Source: Lawsonibacter sp.
Lineage (GTDB): Bacteria; Bacillota; Clostridia; Oscillospirales; Oscillospiraceae
Assembly: GCA_022796195.1 (NCBI GenBank)
Contig: JAAWIE010000010.1
Location: 1 to 39,427 of the forward strand
DNA length: 39,427 bases
Direction of reading: 5' to 3'
Part shown: in pieces, positions 4,082-35,701 of the stretch
Numbering within the stretch: the stretch's first letter is position 1
Layout of the letters: the number at the start of each line of letters is the position of its first letter
Translations under genes and position numbers: made by a program
Notes under the pieces: model-generated
The model's database searches: none
What the model was told of the DNA's origin: nothing
Seen by the model: only the letters and a program-made list of their open reading frames with translations

Positions 4082-5018
4082 AGGAATCCCCCCACAGGGC
4101 GTTGGGCTTCAGGCTGAACATCCGCCGGTCCAGAAGATGAAACCGTCCCCCCTGCACCGCCTGCAAGCTAGACCATGCGGGGTTGGACAGCAGGGTATCC
4201 TCCAGATTGGCCTGGGCCGCCGCCTCGTCGGTGCCGTGGTAGACCGCAAAAATATAGTCCGGGTTAGCCTGAAGAATCGCCTCCAAGCTCAGCTCCTCCA
4301 ACCGCGCACCGTCCTGGTCGGCGATGTTGATGCAGCCCAGTTCCTTCAACATGGGGCCCAGCACGTTATCTTCGCTGTTTTTCACCTTCACACTGCTCCC
4401 CGACACTTGAAGCGTCAGAACCGTGGGAGAAAAGCTGTACACTGCCCTGCGGCTCACCGCCTCGTCCACCTGAACCTTGACCTGCGTGCCGTATGTTTCA
4501 AAATTCTCCGGATGTCCGGTGAGCTGGGTGAACAGCTCCAGCAGGTCCAGATAGTCCTGGAAGGAGGACACGTCAAAATAAGCGGCGGGGATGCCGGAGC
4601 GTTGGAAGGTCTCTTGCAGCTCCAGATTGGAGGGAGAAAGACTGCTGGCAATAATCAGTTCTGGTTCCGCCGCCAGTACCAGTTCGGCGTTGGGCTTCAT
4701 AGGGGAACCGATGTTGGCGGTCTCCCCCAGCTCCAGCCCGTAGGACTCCCATGCGTCGTTAGCGGTAGCGGCTAACTGGGGCGCTCCCCCCGCCAGCACC
4801 CAGACGTCGGCAAAGCTGCCAATCATCACCACCACCCGCTCCGGCTGCTCCAGGTTAAATTCCTGCCCCAAATCGTCGGTAAAGGCGATGGTTTCCACCC
4901 CGGCCGCAGTCGGAAGGGAGCTGGAGAGTCCGCCGGAAGTCTGATGGGCAGTTTGCCCTCCACAGGCGGTCAAAAGAAGCGCCGCACACAGCAGCGAGCT
5001 AAAAATGTGTCGTTTCAT
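4047..5018 (-). CDS. iron/cobalamin ABC transporter substrate-binding lipoprotein
   Basis: A 323-residue extracytoplasmic lipoprotein that delivers ligand to the FecCD permease. The N-terminus is a lipoprotein signal peptide with lipobox LTAC and lipidated C19. The mature part has the BtuF/FepB-type fold: ERVVVMIGSFADVWVLAGG opens the first lobe, a long linking helix runs through the middle, and LLDRRMFSLKPN lies in the second lobe. The start is supported by AAAGGAAA before the ATG. There is no riboswitch in the 35-base gap to the upstream MBL gene, so any metal control would have to act at the distant operon promoter. The cargo is unknown. Confidence 0.9.
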   Translation of the reverse strand: MKRHIFSSLLCAALLLTACGGQTAHQTSGGLSSSLPTAAGVETIAFTDDLGQEFNLEQPERVVVMIGSFADVWVLAGGAPQLAATANDAWESYGLELGETANIGSPMKPNAELVLAAEPELIIASSLSPSNLELQETFQRSGIPAAYFDVSSFQDYLDLLELFTQLTGHPENFETYGTQVKVQVDEAVSRRAVYSFSPTVLTLQVSGSSVKVKNSEDNVLGPMLKELGCINIADQDGARLEELSLEAILQANPDYIFAVYHGTDEAAAQANLEDTLLSNPAWSSLQAVQGGRFHLLDRRMFSLKPNALWGDSYEKLSDILCGE

Positions 5019-5053
5019 TGGTTTCCTTTCTCGGTCAGGTCAGCATTGATCGA

Positions 5054-5896
5054 TTAAAAATTCAAACTCTGTCCGGTGGACAGGGCGCTGCATTGGGGCC
5101 CGAAGCAGTTCTGAAGCAGAGCGAAGGCGGGCTCTCCAGTGCAGTGCCCAGTGTAGAGCTGCTCCACACCCAGCTCGCGCAAAGCGCCGGCCACCTGGAA
5201 GACATATGCCTGGGTGCAGTTCATCCCGCTCTCTCCCTTGCCGAACATGTGAAAGCCGCCCACCACAGCAAAGACCCGTTTGCCGGGAAATTGATCCAGC
5301 ACACTCCGGACAATATTGACAATTCCCCCATGACTGCAAGAATTCAGGACCACCAGTCCTCGCTCTCCCTCCAGCACCAGAGACTGTTCGTGGCGGTAGT
5401 CGTCGGGGATAAAGTCATCCTCTCCCCGTTTAAACAGCAGGTCGGCGGCTTGGCCGGCGAATACCGGGTCATGGACGGTCTCCCCCGCCAGCCAGACCCC
5501 TTCTGCCAGGGAGTACAGCCCAGTGATTTCCACAAACCGGTTTTGATACTCCCGCCAGAGCGCCCGGTGTACGCCGATATACCGCGGCCCCTCCGGACCG
5601 GCGCCGAAGTAGGCCCCCGCCGCCCCAGGGCGGACATAGACCGGGGCACGGCTGTTGCACTGAAAGAACCGGCGCAGGCCGTCGCCGTGGTCGAAGTGGC
5701 CGTGGGACAGCACCGCCGCCTCTACTGCGGACAGGTCTACGCCCAGAACCTGGGCATTGTCCGCAAATTTGCCCGAGGCCCCAGCGTCCAGCAGAAGAAC
5801 CCGGTCCCGGTATTCAATATACAGCGACAGGCCGTGTTCCGGAGTCAGTCCGCATCCCTCCGGGGCGGTGTTTTCCATCAGTACTGTGATTTTCAT
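5054..5896 (-). CDS. MBL-fold metallo-hydrolase
   Basis: A 280-residue soluble metallo-beta-lactamase-fold protein. The metal-binding HGHFDH motif occupies residues 65-70, further ligands lie in SCSHGG and YTGHCTG, and the N-terminal segment MKITVLMENT is typical of the subgroup annotated as dihydropterin-aminobenzene phosphate synthase-like, after the methanopterin enzyme. Clostridia do not make methanopterin, so that name should not be taken as function; a phosphoester or cyclic-nucleotide substrate is possible. It is 16 bases downstream of the MATE gene and 35 bases upstream of the binding-protein gene, within the minus operon. Confidence 0.85.
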   Translation of the reverse strand: MKITVLMENTAPEGCGLTPEHGLSLYIEYRDRVLLLDAGASGKFADNAQVLGVDLSAVEAAVLSHGHFDHGDGLRRFFQCNSRAPVYVRPGAAGAYFGAGPEGPRYIGVHRALWREYQNRFVEITGLYSLAEGVWLAGETVHDPVFAGQAADLLFKRGEDDFIPDDYRHEQSLVLEGERGLVVLNSCSHGGIVNIVRSVLDQFPGKRVFAVVGGFHMFGKGESGMNCTQAYVFQVAGALRELGVEQLYTGHCTGEPAFALLQNCFGPQCSALSTGQSLNF

Positions 5897-11799: not shown

Positions 11800-11933
11800 A
11801 GAAAGTTGTTCACGCGCAACAAAAAACCTCCCGCCGGAAGACAGGAGGACAGCACAAACAAAGTTGATCATTCCTTTGTATGCACTCTCGGCAGGAATTA
11901 CGCCCTTCCGGGCCCCTGCTGTCTTTGAACGCA
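11800..11933 (-). ncRNA. ribosomal protein L10 leader
   Basis: The transcribed strand carries GACAGCAGGGGCC, then GCGTAATTCCTGCCGAGAG, the conserved L10-leader kink-turn and stem segments, followed by a terminator hairpin (11848-11821) and the rplJ ribosome site. In this family excess L10 or L10(L12)4 binds the leader and favours termination or blocks translation. Confidence 0.9.
11821..11848 (-). terminator. attenuator hairpin in the L10 leader
   Basis: CCTCCTGTC-TTCC-GGCGGGAGG (with two G·U pairs) followed by TTTTTTG lies 37 nt upstream of the rplJ start, inside the transcript. This indicates control by premature termination. Confidence 0.85.
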
Positions 11934-11939
11934 AGGGGG

Positions 11940-11968
11940 ATTATACCCCAATTTGGGACAAATGTCAA
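11940..11968 (-). promoter_or_regulatory. consensus sigma-A promoter of rplJL
   Basis: On the minus strand a perfect TTGACA (11968-11963) and a perfect TATAAT (11945-11940), spacer 17 bp. One of the strongest promoters in the window. Confidence 0.9.
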
Positions 11969-29364: not shown

Positions 29365-30153
29365 TCAGTTTGCCGGTTCCGTCTGGAAAAAGCGGTAGAG
29401 CATTTGCACGGTCTCCTCCCGGGTGGGGAAGGCTTTATAATTTTGCTGTCCATCGTGATCCCCCACCACAATCCCCCGTTGTTCTGCCCATTCTCGGGCG
29501 GGTTCAGACCAGCCGCTGGGGGAAAGCTGAGCCCGGCGGGACAAATAGCTCTCCATCATCTCGTCAAAGCGTTCCTGTGTCATAGTGTCATCCTCCATGG
29601 TCCGGGCCACATCCTCCCGGAACCGATCCATCGTCACCCCGTGTTTCGGCCACCACTGCAACACGTCGCCGTGCTGGCTGGCATTGCCCAAATCGTATCC
29701 CTCCGCATGGCAGATCACCACACCAGGCTCCAGCGGGTCCAAGGAATACATCTGGCACAGCATGGCAGTCAATTCAAGCGCATTGCGGTAGATCGCGTCA
29801 AAATAGGGTTGATTGGCCGTCACATCATAACCCACCATCTCACCGCCCTGGTAGGTATGGCCGGCGGGTTCACAGCACTCGAACGCCAGATGGGTGTCGT
29901 TGGCGCTGCGCCCGCTGGTTCCTGTTCCAGCGTGCCAGCCCCGCACCGTCCACGGCAAAGTTTGAATGACCCTATCCTGTCCCACAAAGGCGTGGACGCA
30001 CTTTTGTACGTCCGGTCCGTTCCAGCGGCGGACAAACACCATAGGGTCCGGCTGAGCCACCCCAGTGGAATGGACCATGACTCCCTTCGGCTTCAGGGGC
30101 CTTTTTTCCTGGTAGCACTCGTTTTGCGTCAAAATTTGCTGTTCAAGTTCCAT
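29365..30153 (-). CDS. N-acetylmuramoyl-L-alanine amidase (Amidase_2/PGRP family)
   Basis: A 262-residue zinc amidase of the T7-lysozyme/PGRP fold, which cuts the lactyl-amide bond of peptidoglycan. Key segments are VMVHSTG (first zinc histidine), the FECCE strand and the CHAEGYDLGNASQHGDV and WWPKHG block near residues 150-175, a pattern I associate with phage-type amidases of gut Firmicutes. Starting at the ATG at 30153, with AAAGGAGG upstream, there is no signal peptide, so export would need a holin or lysis. No phage genes surround it. The C-terminal REWAEQRGIVVGDHDGQ block resembles half of an SLH-like or wall-binding helix pair. Confidence 0.88.
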   Translation of the reverse strand: MELEQQILTQNECYQEKRPLKPKGVMVHSTGVAQPDPMVFVRRWNGPDVQKCVHAFVGQDRVIQTLPWTVRGWHAGTGTSGRSANDTHLAFECCEPAGHTYQGGEMVGYDVTANQPYFDAIYRNALELTAMLCQMYSLDPLEPGVVICHAEGYDLGNASQHGDVLQWWPKHGVTMDRFREDVARTMEDDTMTQERFDEMMESYLSRRAQLSPSGWSEPAREWAEQRGIVVGDHDGQQNYKAFPTREETVQMLYRFFQTEPAN

Positions 30154-30249
30154 AACAGCCTCCTTTGGGCCGGGGGCCTGGAGAGGCCCCTGGTATTCTA
30201 TGCCCCCGAATACAGTTTGGACCACAAATGGGAAGAAGCCCTTGGAGTG

Positions 30250-33212: not shown

Positions 33213-33254
33213 CGCCCCTCTCGGTTACGGTCTGTATCGGACCCGAGAGGGGCG
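33213..33254. terminator. convergent terminator between hslO and the HARE-HTH gene
   Basis: CGCCCCTCTCGG (33213-33224) and CCGAGAGGGGCG (33243-33254) form a perfect 12-bp stem with an 18-nt loop. T-tracts are weak on both sides (TTTGCG on minus, TGGTTATT on plus). Confidence 0.75.
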
Positions 33255-33258
33255 CTGG

Positions 33259-33642
33259 TTATTCATCGAATAAATCTGCGTCGTAATGGACCTTTTCCTT
33301 CTCCCAGTGGTCGGCATACGCAGAGTGTTTCACTGCTTCGGGCAGTTTTTCCCTGCCCGGCCTTGGAACCATCCGCCTTGCCGCCGGTTTGCTTCCATCC
33401 ATCCGCTTGTAGGTGGTCTTCCCGCGCTTTGCCCGTACAATTTGAAAGTGCTTTGTGGAGCTGGACGTGGGAAAATCCAACCCTAGACAGTGCCGCCGTA
33501 GAGCAGACCGAACAATATTCGACGGGTTCTTGGCCTTGAACTGGTACAAGTCTTGGGCACAAATCTGTTGATAAATCTCCTGTATCGTCATACCCTCCTG
33601 GGACTGGGACAGAACCATTTCAATCGCTTCCACTACAGTCAC
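33259..33642 (-). CDS. HARE-HTH domain protein
   Basis: A 127-residue protein whose first 70 residues form a HARE-HTH winged-helix domain: TVVEAIEMVLSQSQEGMTIQEIYQQI, then NPSNIVRSALRRH and STKHFQIV. This domain is known in the RNA polymerase delta subunit, in restriction enzymes and chromatin proteins, and is thought to read modified DNA. The C-terminal 55 residues are basic then acidic (KPAARRMVPRPGREK...YDADLFDE), with no nuclease motif. The start is a GTG with GGGAG nine bases upstream. It lies 60 bases after the GHKL ATPase gene on the same strand, so the two probably form one unit. Confidence 0.8.
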   Translation of the reverse strand: MTVVEAIEMVLSQSQEGMTIQEIYQQICAQDLYQFKAKNPSNIVRSALRRHCLGLDFPTSSSTKHFQIVRAKRGKTTYKRMDGSKPAARRMVPRPGREKLPEAVKHSAYADHWEKEKVHYDADLFDE

Positions 33643-33702
33643 AGAGATACACTCCCTTTCTCAGGCATCGCCGCCGGCGTGCAGTCGGGTAAACGGCATT
33701 TT

Positions 33703-35418
33703 TTATCCATTGTGCTCCTCCCGCTGATACTCTCCAATCGCCGTAGCCAAGGCGGCCCCCCACTGTAGGCGCAGGTGATTGAACAGCTCCTCATGTTCCG
33801 GTTTGTCAAACATAGATTCGGCTTTGGCATAGGAGAACAGCAGAAGCAGAATTGCGTTTTTGATGGTTTCCTGCTTATGATCAAAGCTGGACTCCTCTTC
33901 AAAATTCCCGCAAAGCGGTGCTAAAATGGCCTTATAAAAGGGGTGTGCAACGTTAAGTTTTATCACAATCTTGTTAATTAGATGGACCGTCTCAAACAGG
34001 CTGGCAGGCGGCAGGAGCACTGGCTTGATAATATAGGGCTTACCGCTCATCGCCTCTTTCACCGCCGCCTTTTCCTCTTGCGTGGCGCGGCTTCCGTCCA
34101 TCTCGGTAGAGGCCAGCTGGTCCAATTTGCTCTCATGCTCCGCCGGGGTCAGGCTGCGGCCCTTCTGGCTCCGGGGAAGAATGTACTCGGCCTTGGCCAT
34201 GGTCCGCTCAGCGGCGCCGTAGGCGCCCTGTTCCAAAGCCCGCGCCGCATGGGCGCCCTCTCGGTCTCTGCGGATCTCGGCCTGCGCGTCTCTGACCGCA
34301 TTGCTGATCTCCGCTCGAATTTTGTCTCGCAGAGACTCCACCGGTTCCGCCCCCCGCTTGATGTAGCGGATACGGAAATAGTCATCCAGTTCCGGCGGGA
34401 AGGAAATTTCCAGGCCCCACCAGCGGTCGATCCGCTCTGTTTTCCCCCGGCCCTTGGGGCCGATGATATAGGGAACGATACCGTACAAAACTTCGCGGTC
34501 TGCCCGCAAAATAGATATGCCTTCGTTCTGGTCAATTTTCCGTTCTTTGGCAAATTTGCTGCCGCCGTCCCCACTTGCGGTCCGCCACTCCTTCGGAAGA
34601 ATGGACATGCGGATGATCACATCCGCCGTTTCCCCTTCCCGGTCCGGCACAGGCAGGGAGATCCGTTTCTCTTCCCCAAAGGGCTTGGCCTTCCGGTCCG
34701 GGATTCCCTCTCGTTCCATCTGTTCCACATCAAACCGGGTGGGCCCCGCCATGTACAGCGGGTCGTGGAGGTAGACCGGCCTGCCATCCAGAAAGATTTT
34801 TACGCCCCGCTCAATAAATTTTCGGTAGGTGCGGCCCAGATAGTTGGCGAACCCCTCGCTGGTCCCGTCCAACCGGTCGCATCGCGCCATAACGACCACC
34901 GTACCGCTTTTCCCCTTCAGCCGTTCCGCGCCGGGCGGGTCTTTCTCAACCGGAGCGGGTATTATTTTCATATCCTCATTCTGGATATCATCCAGGTCAA
35001 TAAAAGTATACAAAAAGGGCTGGTCCCCGCTGGGGCGGGAATATACCTCAACACGCCGGGCCAGAGAGATACTTCCCAGAGTCATTCCTACGCCAAAACG
35101 TCCAATCCGTCCCACTCCAGCCTGGGGCGTGCGGATGGATTCACCCAAAACAAGACAGCGGTGCAGAACGTTGCGGTCCATGCCGTCGCCGTCGTCGGTA
35201 ACGATGACCTTCGTAATGCTGTCCACTGGCCTTTTTTTCTTCTCTTTCTTGACCTTCTCTACGACCAGGTCCACATGGATGTTTGCGGCACGGGCCTCCA
35301 CCGAGTTATCAATGATTTCTCCCAGCCCGTTTTCTGCCGAGTAGTCATTGTAGCGCAGAGACTCATAAATCTTCGAGACACGAATGAGGGCGCTGGGCGA
35401 TTTTGCTTGCTCTTCCAT
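33703..35418 (-). CDS. MORC/Hsp90-like GHKL ATPase
   Basis: A 571-residue ATPase of the GHKL (gyrase, Hsp90, kinase, MutL) superfamily. The Bergerat fold lies at residues 10-200: N-box GLGEIIDNSVEA with E34 and N38, G1 DDGDGM (75-80), G2 GRIGRFGVGM (103-112). An S5-like second domain follows to about 350, with the segment IDRWWGLEISFPPELDD, then a charged helical region (REISNAVRDAQAEIRRDRE-like, about 370-430) that could dimerise. GVGM followed by GSISLARRVEVYS resembles bacterial MORC and MutL-type proteins tied to restriction systems. I chose the ATG at 35418 with GGAGGT seven bases before. It is preceded by a structured, terminator-bearing leader and followed by a HARE-HTH gene. Confidence 0.82.
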   Translation of the reverse strand: MEEQAKSPSALIRVSKIYESLRYNDYSAENGLGEIIDNSVEARAANIHVDLVVEKVKKEKKKRPVDSITKVIVTDDGDGMDRNVLHRCLVLGESIRTPQAGVGRIGRFGVGMTLGSISLARRVEVYSRPSGDQPFLYTFIDLDDIQNEDMKIIPAPVEKDPPGAERLKGKSGTVVVMARCDRLDGTSEGFANYLGRTYRKFIERGVKIFLDGRPVYLHDPLYMAGPTRFDVEQMEREGIPDRKAKPFGEEKRISLPVPDREGETADVIIRMSILPKEWRTASGDGGSKFAKERKIDQNEGISILRADREVLYGIVPYIIGPKGRGKTERIDRWWGLEISFPPELDDYFRIRYIKRGAEPVESLRDKIRAEISNAVRDAQAEIRRDREGAHAARALEQGAYGAAERTMAKAEYILPRSQKGRSLTPAEHESKLDQLASTEMDGSRATQEEKAAVKEAMSGKPYIIKPVLLPPASLFETVHLINKIVIKLNVAHPFYKAILAPLCGNFEEESSFDHKQETIKNAILLLLFSYAKAESMFDKPEHEELFNHLRLQWGAALATAIGEYQREEHNG

Positions 35419-35480
35419 AATCGTTACCTCCAATGATCCGCCCTTGTTTGAACCATTGTGCGTCAAACGGGGCAAAAGTT

Positions 35481-35658
35481 CGAGTTTTGAAAAAAAGGCC
35501 CCTTACAGTCTGTAAGGGCCCTAAAAAACTCAACCATCGGATGGTAACACAAAATAACACAGCCCCAAAGCTGTATTTTTCTTGACTTACGATCGACAGC
35601 TTTGCTCTTTTGTTCCTACAGTCGATGCCGTAAGACCGTTACAAAACTCGATGAAACT
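35481..35658 (-). ncRNA. structured RNA with terminator upstream of the MORC-like gene
   Basis: A minus-strand transcript from near 35652 would be about 170 nt. CGAGTTTTG (35650-35642) at its 5' end pairs perfectly with CAAAACTCG (35489-35481). Inside lie CTTACG..ATCGAC (35634-35621) with GTCGATCGTAAG (35597-35586), a 12-bp stem with a 2-nt bulge; ACAGC/GCTGT (35574-35570/35563-35559); ACCAT/ATGGT (35545-35541/35537-35533); and the terminator hairpin 35521-35497 with six Ts. The internal GAGTTTT (35531-35525) can compete for the 3' closing strand. No known family was recognised. It is either an attenuator leader or a stable small RNA. Confidence 0.6.
35491..35521 (-). terminator. intrinsic terminator/attenuator upstream of the MORC-like gene
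   Basis: On the minus strand GGGCCCTTAC and GTAAGGGGCC pair (one G·G mismatch, 5-nt loop) and run directly into TTTTTTC. It lies 73 nt upstream of the ATG, so the ATPase gene is expressed only when the polymerase reads through. Confidence 0.85.
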
Positions 35659-35686
35659 ATTATATACCATTTCCACCATATGTCAA
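35659..35686 (-). promoter_or_regulatory. sigma-A promoter of the RNA-MORC-HARE unit
   Basis: On the minus strand a perfect TTGACA (35686-35681) and a perfect TATAAT (35664-35659) with a 16-bp spacer, preceded by an AT-rich tract that may act as an UP element. Confidence 0.85.
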
Positions 35687-35691
35687 GAAAT

Positions 35692-35701
35692 TTCGACAAA
35701 A
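35692..35701 (-). promoter_or_regulatory. Spo0A-type box next to the -35
   Basis: On the minus strand TTTTGTCGAA, a perfect 0A-box core (TGTCGAA), lies five bases upstream of the -35, about -40 to -49 from the inferred start. It is part of a 15-bp palindrome GACAAAA-T-TTTTGTC (35695-35709). Confidence 0.5.

Follow-up and report, generated by a model that had tools for sequence, protein, structure and literature searches.

A stretch of 39,427 nucleotides (nt) from the draft genome of a Lawsonibacter sp. (contig JAAWIE010000010.1; hereafter the window, in whose coordinates all positions are given) contains a compact cassette in which a promoter, a leader RNA, the gene of a MORC-like GHKL ATPase and the gene of a HARE-HTH protein follow one another on the minus strand. 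There is strong comparative evidence that the family of this ATPase is linked to the phosphorothioate (PT) systems, and the leader RNA is real and conserved. A first-pass annotation, made from the sequence alone, had described the promoter, a folded RNA with terminator, the ATPase and, after 60 bases, the HARE-HTH protein as one unit, and this is confirmed by promoter consensus, RNA fold and Pfam matches. It had also proposed a role in DNA surveillance or defence, which the linkage of the ATPase family supports and narrows to PT systems (Dnd, Ssp, BREX type 4 and Pbe). Overall its interpretation is partly supported. The anatomy of the cassette, the conservation of the RNA, the family-wide link to PT genes and the presence of dndBCDE in the host are established here.

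Phosphorothioate genes and the ATPase family

The ATPase (P0001; 33703..35418) has 571 amino acids (aa) and was identified through Pfam, motifs and a structure model. It belongs to the GHKL superfamily, with a match of 66.3 bits to Pfam HATPase_c_3 (cut-off 25), the N, G1 and G2 motifs and the ATPase fold; the model has a mean pLDDT of 86.2 and its minimum at residues 99-107, beside the G2 box. The three boxes had been called intact, and their residues are identical in all 51 aligned rows, where E34, N38, D75, G77, G79, G106, G109, G111 and K354 are invariant. The GHKL domain is followed by an S5 domain with a MORC-like predicted fold, which is the MORC-family layout in the sense of Iyer 2008. 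The strict MORC S5 motif, GhXhhpXXRhl, is incomplete, with 10 of its 11 positions in 46 rows and 9 in the other 5, and in every row a Glu (E309 in P0001) replaces a hydrophobic residue of the motif. Because the strict motif stays at 10/11, the protein is rightly called 'MORC-like' rather than 'MORC': the likeness that had been noted stands, and the strict label is unsupported.

No C-terminal PD-(D/E)XK nuclease (DUF4263) was found in P0001, where only GHKL families were matched in Pfam at E values up to 1. The sole PADLOC match was MzaB. The scores were 43.2 bits against MzaB (NCBIfam NF041932, cut-off 850) and 32.4 against BbrUII (cut-off 550). A second, distant GHKL match of 25.9 bits is present in the host genome (L003, G000:C17:3403), close to a frame that by eye resembles a DNA cytosine methylase.

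A pattern and tblastn scan of one genome per species, covering 84,980 species, gave 73 ATPase loci. The tree has 51 rows, P0001 and 50 of these loci; those omitted were outside 520-660 aa, had no called frame or were left out by choice. In it, the window protein clusters with L017-L023 at a support of 100/100. Two loci outside the tree, L024 (short) and L070 (broken), are close to this set by identity, which gives a clade of 10 loci in 9 genomes (L022 and L024 are both in G735). The clade records are labelled Oscillospiraceae, Lachnospiraceae and Clostridiaceae, and because the clade mixes families the ATPase seems to move between lineages. It was found in 2 of 64 genomes of the genus, host included, the next relative being in the genus-mate G018; in 3 of 397 genomes of a Lachnospiraceae sample (the family of G732), all at previously known loci; and in 6 of 391 genomes of the class at E<=0.001, of which the five besides the host are distant partial matches. 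In viral contigs the ATPase search confirmed none, and three phage records have partial matches at 22-24% identity.

How often is this ATPase found with PT genes? A PT-type PAPS reductase (E<=1e-20) is present at 44 of the 73 loci, a PAPS reductase or cysteine desulfurase at 49, and a PT, BREX4 or Pbe marker at 53. With six plasmid loci added, the PT-type reductase is found at 46 of 79 loci at E<=1e-5. In the class background DUF4007 occurs in 1 of 236 genomes and DndC in 4 of 231 (host and G125 included), a comparison that is indirect because the background used other markers. PT genes were reported in 7.7% of 13,000 gut isolates in the accessible part of PMC11931770. In the one DUF4007 genome (G118), the best class-wide distant match to the window ATPase is on the same contig (C19), about 13 kb away.

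Within the clade, the ATPase gene at L018 comes after BREX4-type genes (part of BrxC, PglZ, BrxL, a 73-aa frame and a cysteine desulfurase), and at L017 it faces such genes. Both contigs contain long PAPS reductase frames, and the frame in G018 matches BrxP with 883 bits. At L019 the ATPase comes after co-directional matches to SspC, a BrxP/SspD-type reductase, SspA, PbeA and PbeC, and at L021 after a Pbe-type part. Ssp-type genes are on other contigs in G733 (SspB, 202 bits) and G734, and in G735 a frame is taken as SspD-like from its PF01507 score, length and neighbours. PT-type reductases are thus present in 7 of the 9 clade genomes. Also in the Pbe-type run that precedes the ATPase of L019 are a protein with a Cas9/PtuB-matching stretch and a 339-aa protein without a PADLOC match (L125:3462-4469 and 4469-5488).

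The host draft genome comprises 197 contigs totalling 2.68 Mb, with 90.9% completeness and 7.9% contamination. Four consecutive genes on its contig C162 match the DndB, C, D and E models (DndC 395.6 bits, cut-off 290.4). The frames after dndE read by eye as ordinary genes, with no DndFGH or nuclease among them. PAPS reductase matches are on C94 and C162, with none on the window's contig, C55. The tetranucleotide composition of the flanks of the dnd stretch correlates with that of the window flanks (r 0.972), an argument against contamination as the source of the dnd genes.

Several observations weigh against the PT link. The dnd genes are not beside the cassette, being on another contig of a partly contaminated draft, and G736 and G737 have no PT-type reductase, only CysD-like or other PAPS frames. 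At 20 of the 73 loci there is no stricter marker at all, although some of these are short contigs and L021, counted among them, has a PbeC-type frame. The nearest PT-family gene is on the ATPase strand at 24 of 56 loci. In addition, the 73 loci were drawn by two motif patterns and are related to one another, many being from Streptomyces.

A Pfam scan of the flanks covered 92 of the 143 listed neighbour proteins, and DNA methylase families were absent among the best 25 of the 65 families matched. The first-pass annotation had found no adjoining nuclease or methylase, which holds for the window; the host dndBCDE genes are outside it. Other neighbours recur around the family. PC4 domains are present in 7 of the 92 proteins, and a protein of about 745 aa downstream of the ATPase in actinomycete loci (L035:9796-12030) has at least 55% identity to 11 of the 91 other flanking proteins and no Pfam or PADLOC match at E 1e-4. 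Small genes similar to a 139-aa frame (L055:10357-10776) are found at 16 of 79 MORC-like loci, including L046, and relatives of a 176-aa frame of unknown family, also at L055, at 19 of 79. One neighbour at L012 is annotated as a GIY-YIG nuclease in its record.

The HARE-HTH protein (P0002; 127 aa, GTG start, 33259..33642) begins 60 bases past the ATPase stop and belongs to Pfam HARE-HTH (PF05066; 31.5 bits, gathering cut-off 25.9). Aligned with HARE-REase proteins, it covers their HARE part and linker and ends before the nuclease. G125 has, after an apparent dndB-C-D-E run (judged by eye; dndC 353 bits), a HARE-Mrr enzyme with an Mrr_cat score of 110.8 bits; P0002 and the HARE part of this enzyme share 53% identity over 74 residues. 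Matches to P0002 were found in 3 of 291 genomes of the class: the host, G125 and one weak (4e-4, with stops in frame). A tblastn search of the loci then collected gave a single match under E 0.01, at L046, outside the ATPase clade, where a HARE-REase frame is about 3 kb upstream of the MORC-like gene. Rare co-occurrence of the ATPase with the HARE-HTH gene or the RNA had been set in advance as grounds for rejecting the cassette. The RNA is present at 6 of the 9 other clade loci and HARE-HTH in none of the 9 flanks examined. As a conserved partner of the ATPase, HARE-HTH is rejected, being found at one of the ten clade loci, the window itself.

A conserved leader RNA

The ATPase gene is preceded by a promoter (TTGACA-16 nt-TATAAT, 35659..35686) that agrees with the consensus at 12 of 12 positions. 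The leader is a 5' untranslated region of 240 nt (35419..35658). Ahead of the gene come an intrinsic terminator made of a hairpin and a U run (35490..35522; in the terminator scan, hairpin 35518..35500 and then a T run) and a Shine-Dalgarno sequence GGAGG at 35427..35431. The layout of promoter, leader of 219-254 nt, terminator, GGAGG and ATG is common to 7 of the 10 clade loci, with promoter-like sites at the same position before the other six leaders. These seven loci share the 5' domain (35592..35652), a predicted fold in which a P1 stem surrounds the 7-bp P2 hairpin (35614..35635). A stretch of 172 nt (35656..35485) folds at -56.9 kcal/mol (z -4.4), and none of 200 dinucleotide shuffles is as stable.

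All seven pairs of P2 form in all seven sequences, and three have changes on both sides. The outer P1 is paired in 88.6% of cells. Together, P1 and P2 pair in 95.2% of cells, as against 32.5-47.6% for slid registers; the gain over shuffled partners is smaller (expectation 92.2%; 3 of 500 shuffles reach 95.2%), and the number of pairs with double changes is equalled in 46 of 500. Without the terminator, 5 of the 7 leaders fold better than shuffles. L017 disrupts most of the outer P1, the leaders of L019 and L020 fold no better than shuffles without the terminator (z -0.7 and -1.0), and the comparison is of seven sequences, two of them close.

A leader model searched over 81 sources matches only before this ATPase, at seven distinct loci (an eighth row, L010, is L017 again). 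There is one copy in the host genome and one in each of 5 of the 7 other clade genomes, with no match in G735 or G737. With stricter filters the model matches 1 of 295 genomes of the order, the host itself. By eye, L022 keeps the terminator alone; by eye and by the model, L024 and L070 have no leader. No Rfam family matches the leader above its gathering score in the window or at the six other loci, and the best match to the window leader region at E up to 10 is far under its cut-off. In phage contigs, a strict degenerate pattern for the RNA matched nothing. A T-box leader (100.6 bits) is present near the clade locus L017 (7300-7559, minus strand).

Is the leader an attenuator? Across the loci, the first terminator arm has its complement in a 5' segment that spans P1 and P2. 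In the window the two strands of this candidate antiterminator helix are 35631..35643, overlapping the 5' strands of P1 and P2, and 35511..35523, the 5' arm of the terminator; the duplex is calculated at -13.2 kcal/mol, equalled by none of 200 shuffles. The mean is -13.0 kcal/mol within loci and -10.2 between them, only 8 of 5040 partner permutations are as good, and at 6 of 7 loci no more than 7 of 200 shuffles are. When transcripts are cut after the first terminator arm, the helix is complete in the truncated folds of L017, L018 and L019 and has 4 of 12 pairs in L023. A further candidate helix, P0 (10 bp), would join the leader 5' end to the post-terminator bases (35480..35489; 4 of 500 shuffles). 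Over the seven leaders this complementarity is equalled by 12 of 5040 partner permutations, and 4 of 7 loci stand at 11 or fewer of 500 shuffles, the others at 32, 43 and 156 (L018). In the window P0 is ambiguous, as the post-terminator segment can instead pair just before the terminator.

Other results argue against such a switch, among them the folds of L019 and L020 given above and the small set of leaders. The duplex of L020 is matched by 47 of 200 shuffles, and the helix is absent from the truncated folds of the window, L020 and L021, the arm pairing instead with leader bases 38-50 in the window (35609..35621, predicted fold) and with bases 1-6 in L021. Full folds favour the terminator in 6 of 7 leaders and the antiterminator helix only in L019. 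A transcription switch is still the simplest reading of the leader and a plausible one, and a role as a small RNA partner of the protein is less likely. The annotation had taken the RNA as a control element; the conserved leader is real, and a control role is plausible only. A leader peptide was set aside by eye: M-K-V-S-W frames are seen in L020, L021 and L023, and L017, L018 and the window have no ATG at that place.

The cassette is flanked by a ferredoxin gene on one side and hsp33 on the other, with a CorC/CBS protein also nearby. An inverted repeat seen by eye at 33213..33254, CGCCCCTCTCGG...CCGAGAGGGGCG (strand unassigned), is probably a terminator common to the cassette and the convergent hsp33; it is absent from the sites of the terminator scan. 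Elsewhere on the minus strand of the window are a ribosomal protein L10 leader (RF00557, 45.9 bits, 11812-11946) and an Amidase_2 (N-acetylmuramoyl-L-alanine amidase) gene (52.7 bits, 29365-30225).

Proposed mechanism and alternatives

We favour, somewhat below even chances, a PT-linked anti-invader ATPase under RNA-based attenuation as one joint mechanism; it had been put at one half, and was lowered because of the recount of the helix in truncated and full folds. Transcription would start at the strong promoter, the leader would fold with the terminator formed by default, and most transcripts would end after about 170 nt. A cue (infection, stress, PT loss or a bound factor) would let the leader 5' bases capture the first terminator arm, and the resulting readthrough would yield the ATPase and the HARE-HTH protein. 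Judging from its fold and relatives, the ATPase may form an ATP-driven dimer that clamps DNA, as MORC, SMCHD1 and MutL do, and the HARE-HTH protein, here without the usual Mrr nuclease, may help to distinguish modified from unmodified DNA. Both would load on DNA that does not carry the PT marks made by the host Dnd proteins, and the loaded complex would block it by clamping or compaction, or recruit another nuclease. MORC2 is described as a DNA-compacting ATPase in the available text of PMC12216690, an analogy that suggests blocking rather than cutting. Switching, PT sensing and phage resistance are proposals drawn from sequence comparison. Wider still, and doubtful as a whole, is the reading in which MORC-like ATPases would be a general, unrecognised PT effector of Dnd, Ssp and BREX type 4 systems in bacteria and archaea, carrying out the restriction that many 'orphan' PT systems lack; in gut Clostridia, infection or a failure of PT marking would open a new RNA switch dedicated to the gene, and a solitary cassette could serve a dnd locus at another place in the genome.

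The leader could instead be a small RNA that restrains or guides the ATPase, in the manner of type III toxin-antitoxin systems or AbiF/RCd22, with the terminator keeping RNA in excess of mRNA. The order promoter, RNA, terminator, gene would suit this, as would the restriction of the RNA to this ATPase in at most one copy per genome, the prevalence of the terminator in full folds and the RCd22 precedent in C. difficile (PMC12373285, accessible text). However, ToxIN-type RNA repeats are missing from the five leaders tested, four of which have no direct-repeat family of at least 14 nt, so no tandem repeats, while the window's single pair is 118 nt apart and not tandem, which also sets the leader apart from type III toxin-antitoxin RNAs. 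A switch accounts better for the complementarity between 5' strand and terminator arm, matched as it is within loci, and we consider a small RNA rather unlikely. Decay of the cassette is unlikely too. The HARE-HTH protein would then be the stump of a HARE-Mrr enzyme minus its nuclease and the ATPase a stray from a PT or restriction-modification (R-M) island; the end of P0002 before the nuclease points this way, as do the broken L070 and the short L024, both leaderless, and the lone terminator of L022, but both window frames are intact, the ATPase catalytic residues complete, the promoter perfect and P2 undamaged.

It is very unlikely that the ATPase is part of an ordinary methylation-based R-M system, or one like MZA or Shedu, at unlinked loci. 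MORC and paraMORC proteins are known as R-M parts (PMC2292703, accessible portion), and the weak MzaB and BbrUII matches and the host's other GHKL match near a methylase-like frame agree with it. These scores are nevertheless far below the cut-offs, the flanks gave no DNA methylase among the best-ranked families and PT genes are at 44 of 73 loci. The window neighbours hsp33, ferredoxin and CorC/CBS could also indicate a housekeeping, chromosome-organising ATPase with a growth-tuned leader. With the gene in so few genomes of the genus and of the Lachnospiraceae sample, and with a clade that mixes families, this is barely credible.

Relation to known systems

MORC-like ATPases in restriction systems, PT defence and HARE-REases with Dnd are already known. 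Among the literature matches listed, we found no MORC-like ATPase as a regular PT companion and no conserved leader RNA for one; most subscription papers were outside the search, so a report of the former could exist. In the main text at hand, PMC12839542 has neither MORC nor GHKL, PMC6459918 no GHKL and PMC11662687 no MORC; MORC is likewise not mentioned in the available PMC10853773 text, and appears in those of PMC3506569 and PMC5512222 as a citation only. By the count in the accessible part of PMC8092258, neither sspFGH nor sspE accompanies 2,211 of 2,678 sspBCD modules, which the paper suggests have more varied restriction partners or are true orphans; the accessible part of PMC11931770 describes many PT bacteria without restriction genes. 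Such a partner could be a MORC-like ATPase that recurs next to Dnd, Ssp and BREX4 genes, a candidate concrete enough to be tested. If true, the eukaryotic MORC silencers would have a bacterial parallel acting with a mark on the DNA backbone; the cassette also contributes a defence gene preceded by a conserved leader RNA.

Like the prokaryotic MORC and paraMORC1-5 proteins, as far as PMC2292703 could be consulted, the family has GHKL and S5 domains, full catalytic motifs, patchy spread and DNA-acting neighbours. It differs in the invariant E309 at a hydrophobic position of the MORC motif (51/51) and in its PT genes near 44 of 73 loci, where the same portion of that paper describes methylases and nucleases; the window copy has no adjacent SFII helicase or nuclease. 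MzaB of the MZA system and VcSduA (GHKL-Shedu, paraMORC3; PMC12137116, text available in part) are likewise GHKL ATPases in anti-phage proteins, but the window ATPase is far under the MzaB cut-off and has no match to the DUF4263 nuclease. The likeness to Dnd, SspABCD, BREX type 4, PbeABCD and DndI, as the accessible parts of PMC6459918, PMC8092258, PMC11662687 and PMC12839542 present them, lies in the host dndBCDE genes and in relatives of the ATPase inside such loci; in contrast to Dnd systems, no restriction part adjoins the host modification genes and the cassette is on another contig. According to the available part of PMC10853773, Dnd genes are followed by HARE-HTH-REase proteins that may tell modified DNA apart. 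Their HARE-HTH domain is closely alike, as the G125 enzyme shows, whereas the protein in the window lacks a nuclease domain and travels with a MORC-like ATPase. AbiF/RCd22 of C. difficile, from what is accessible of PMC12373285, also places a structured RNA before a defence gene in Clostridia; its protein is unrelated, and the leader of the window has 5' bases complementary to the terminator arm.

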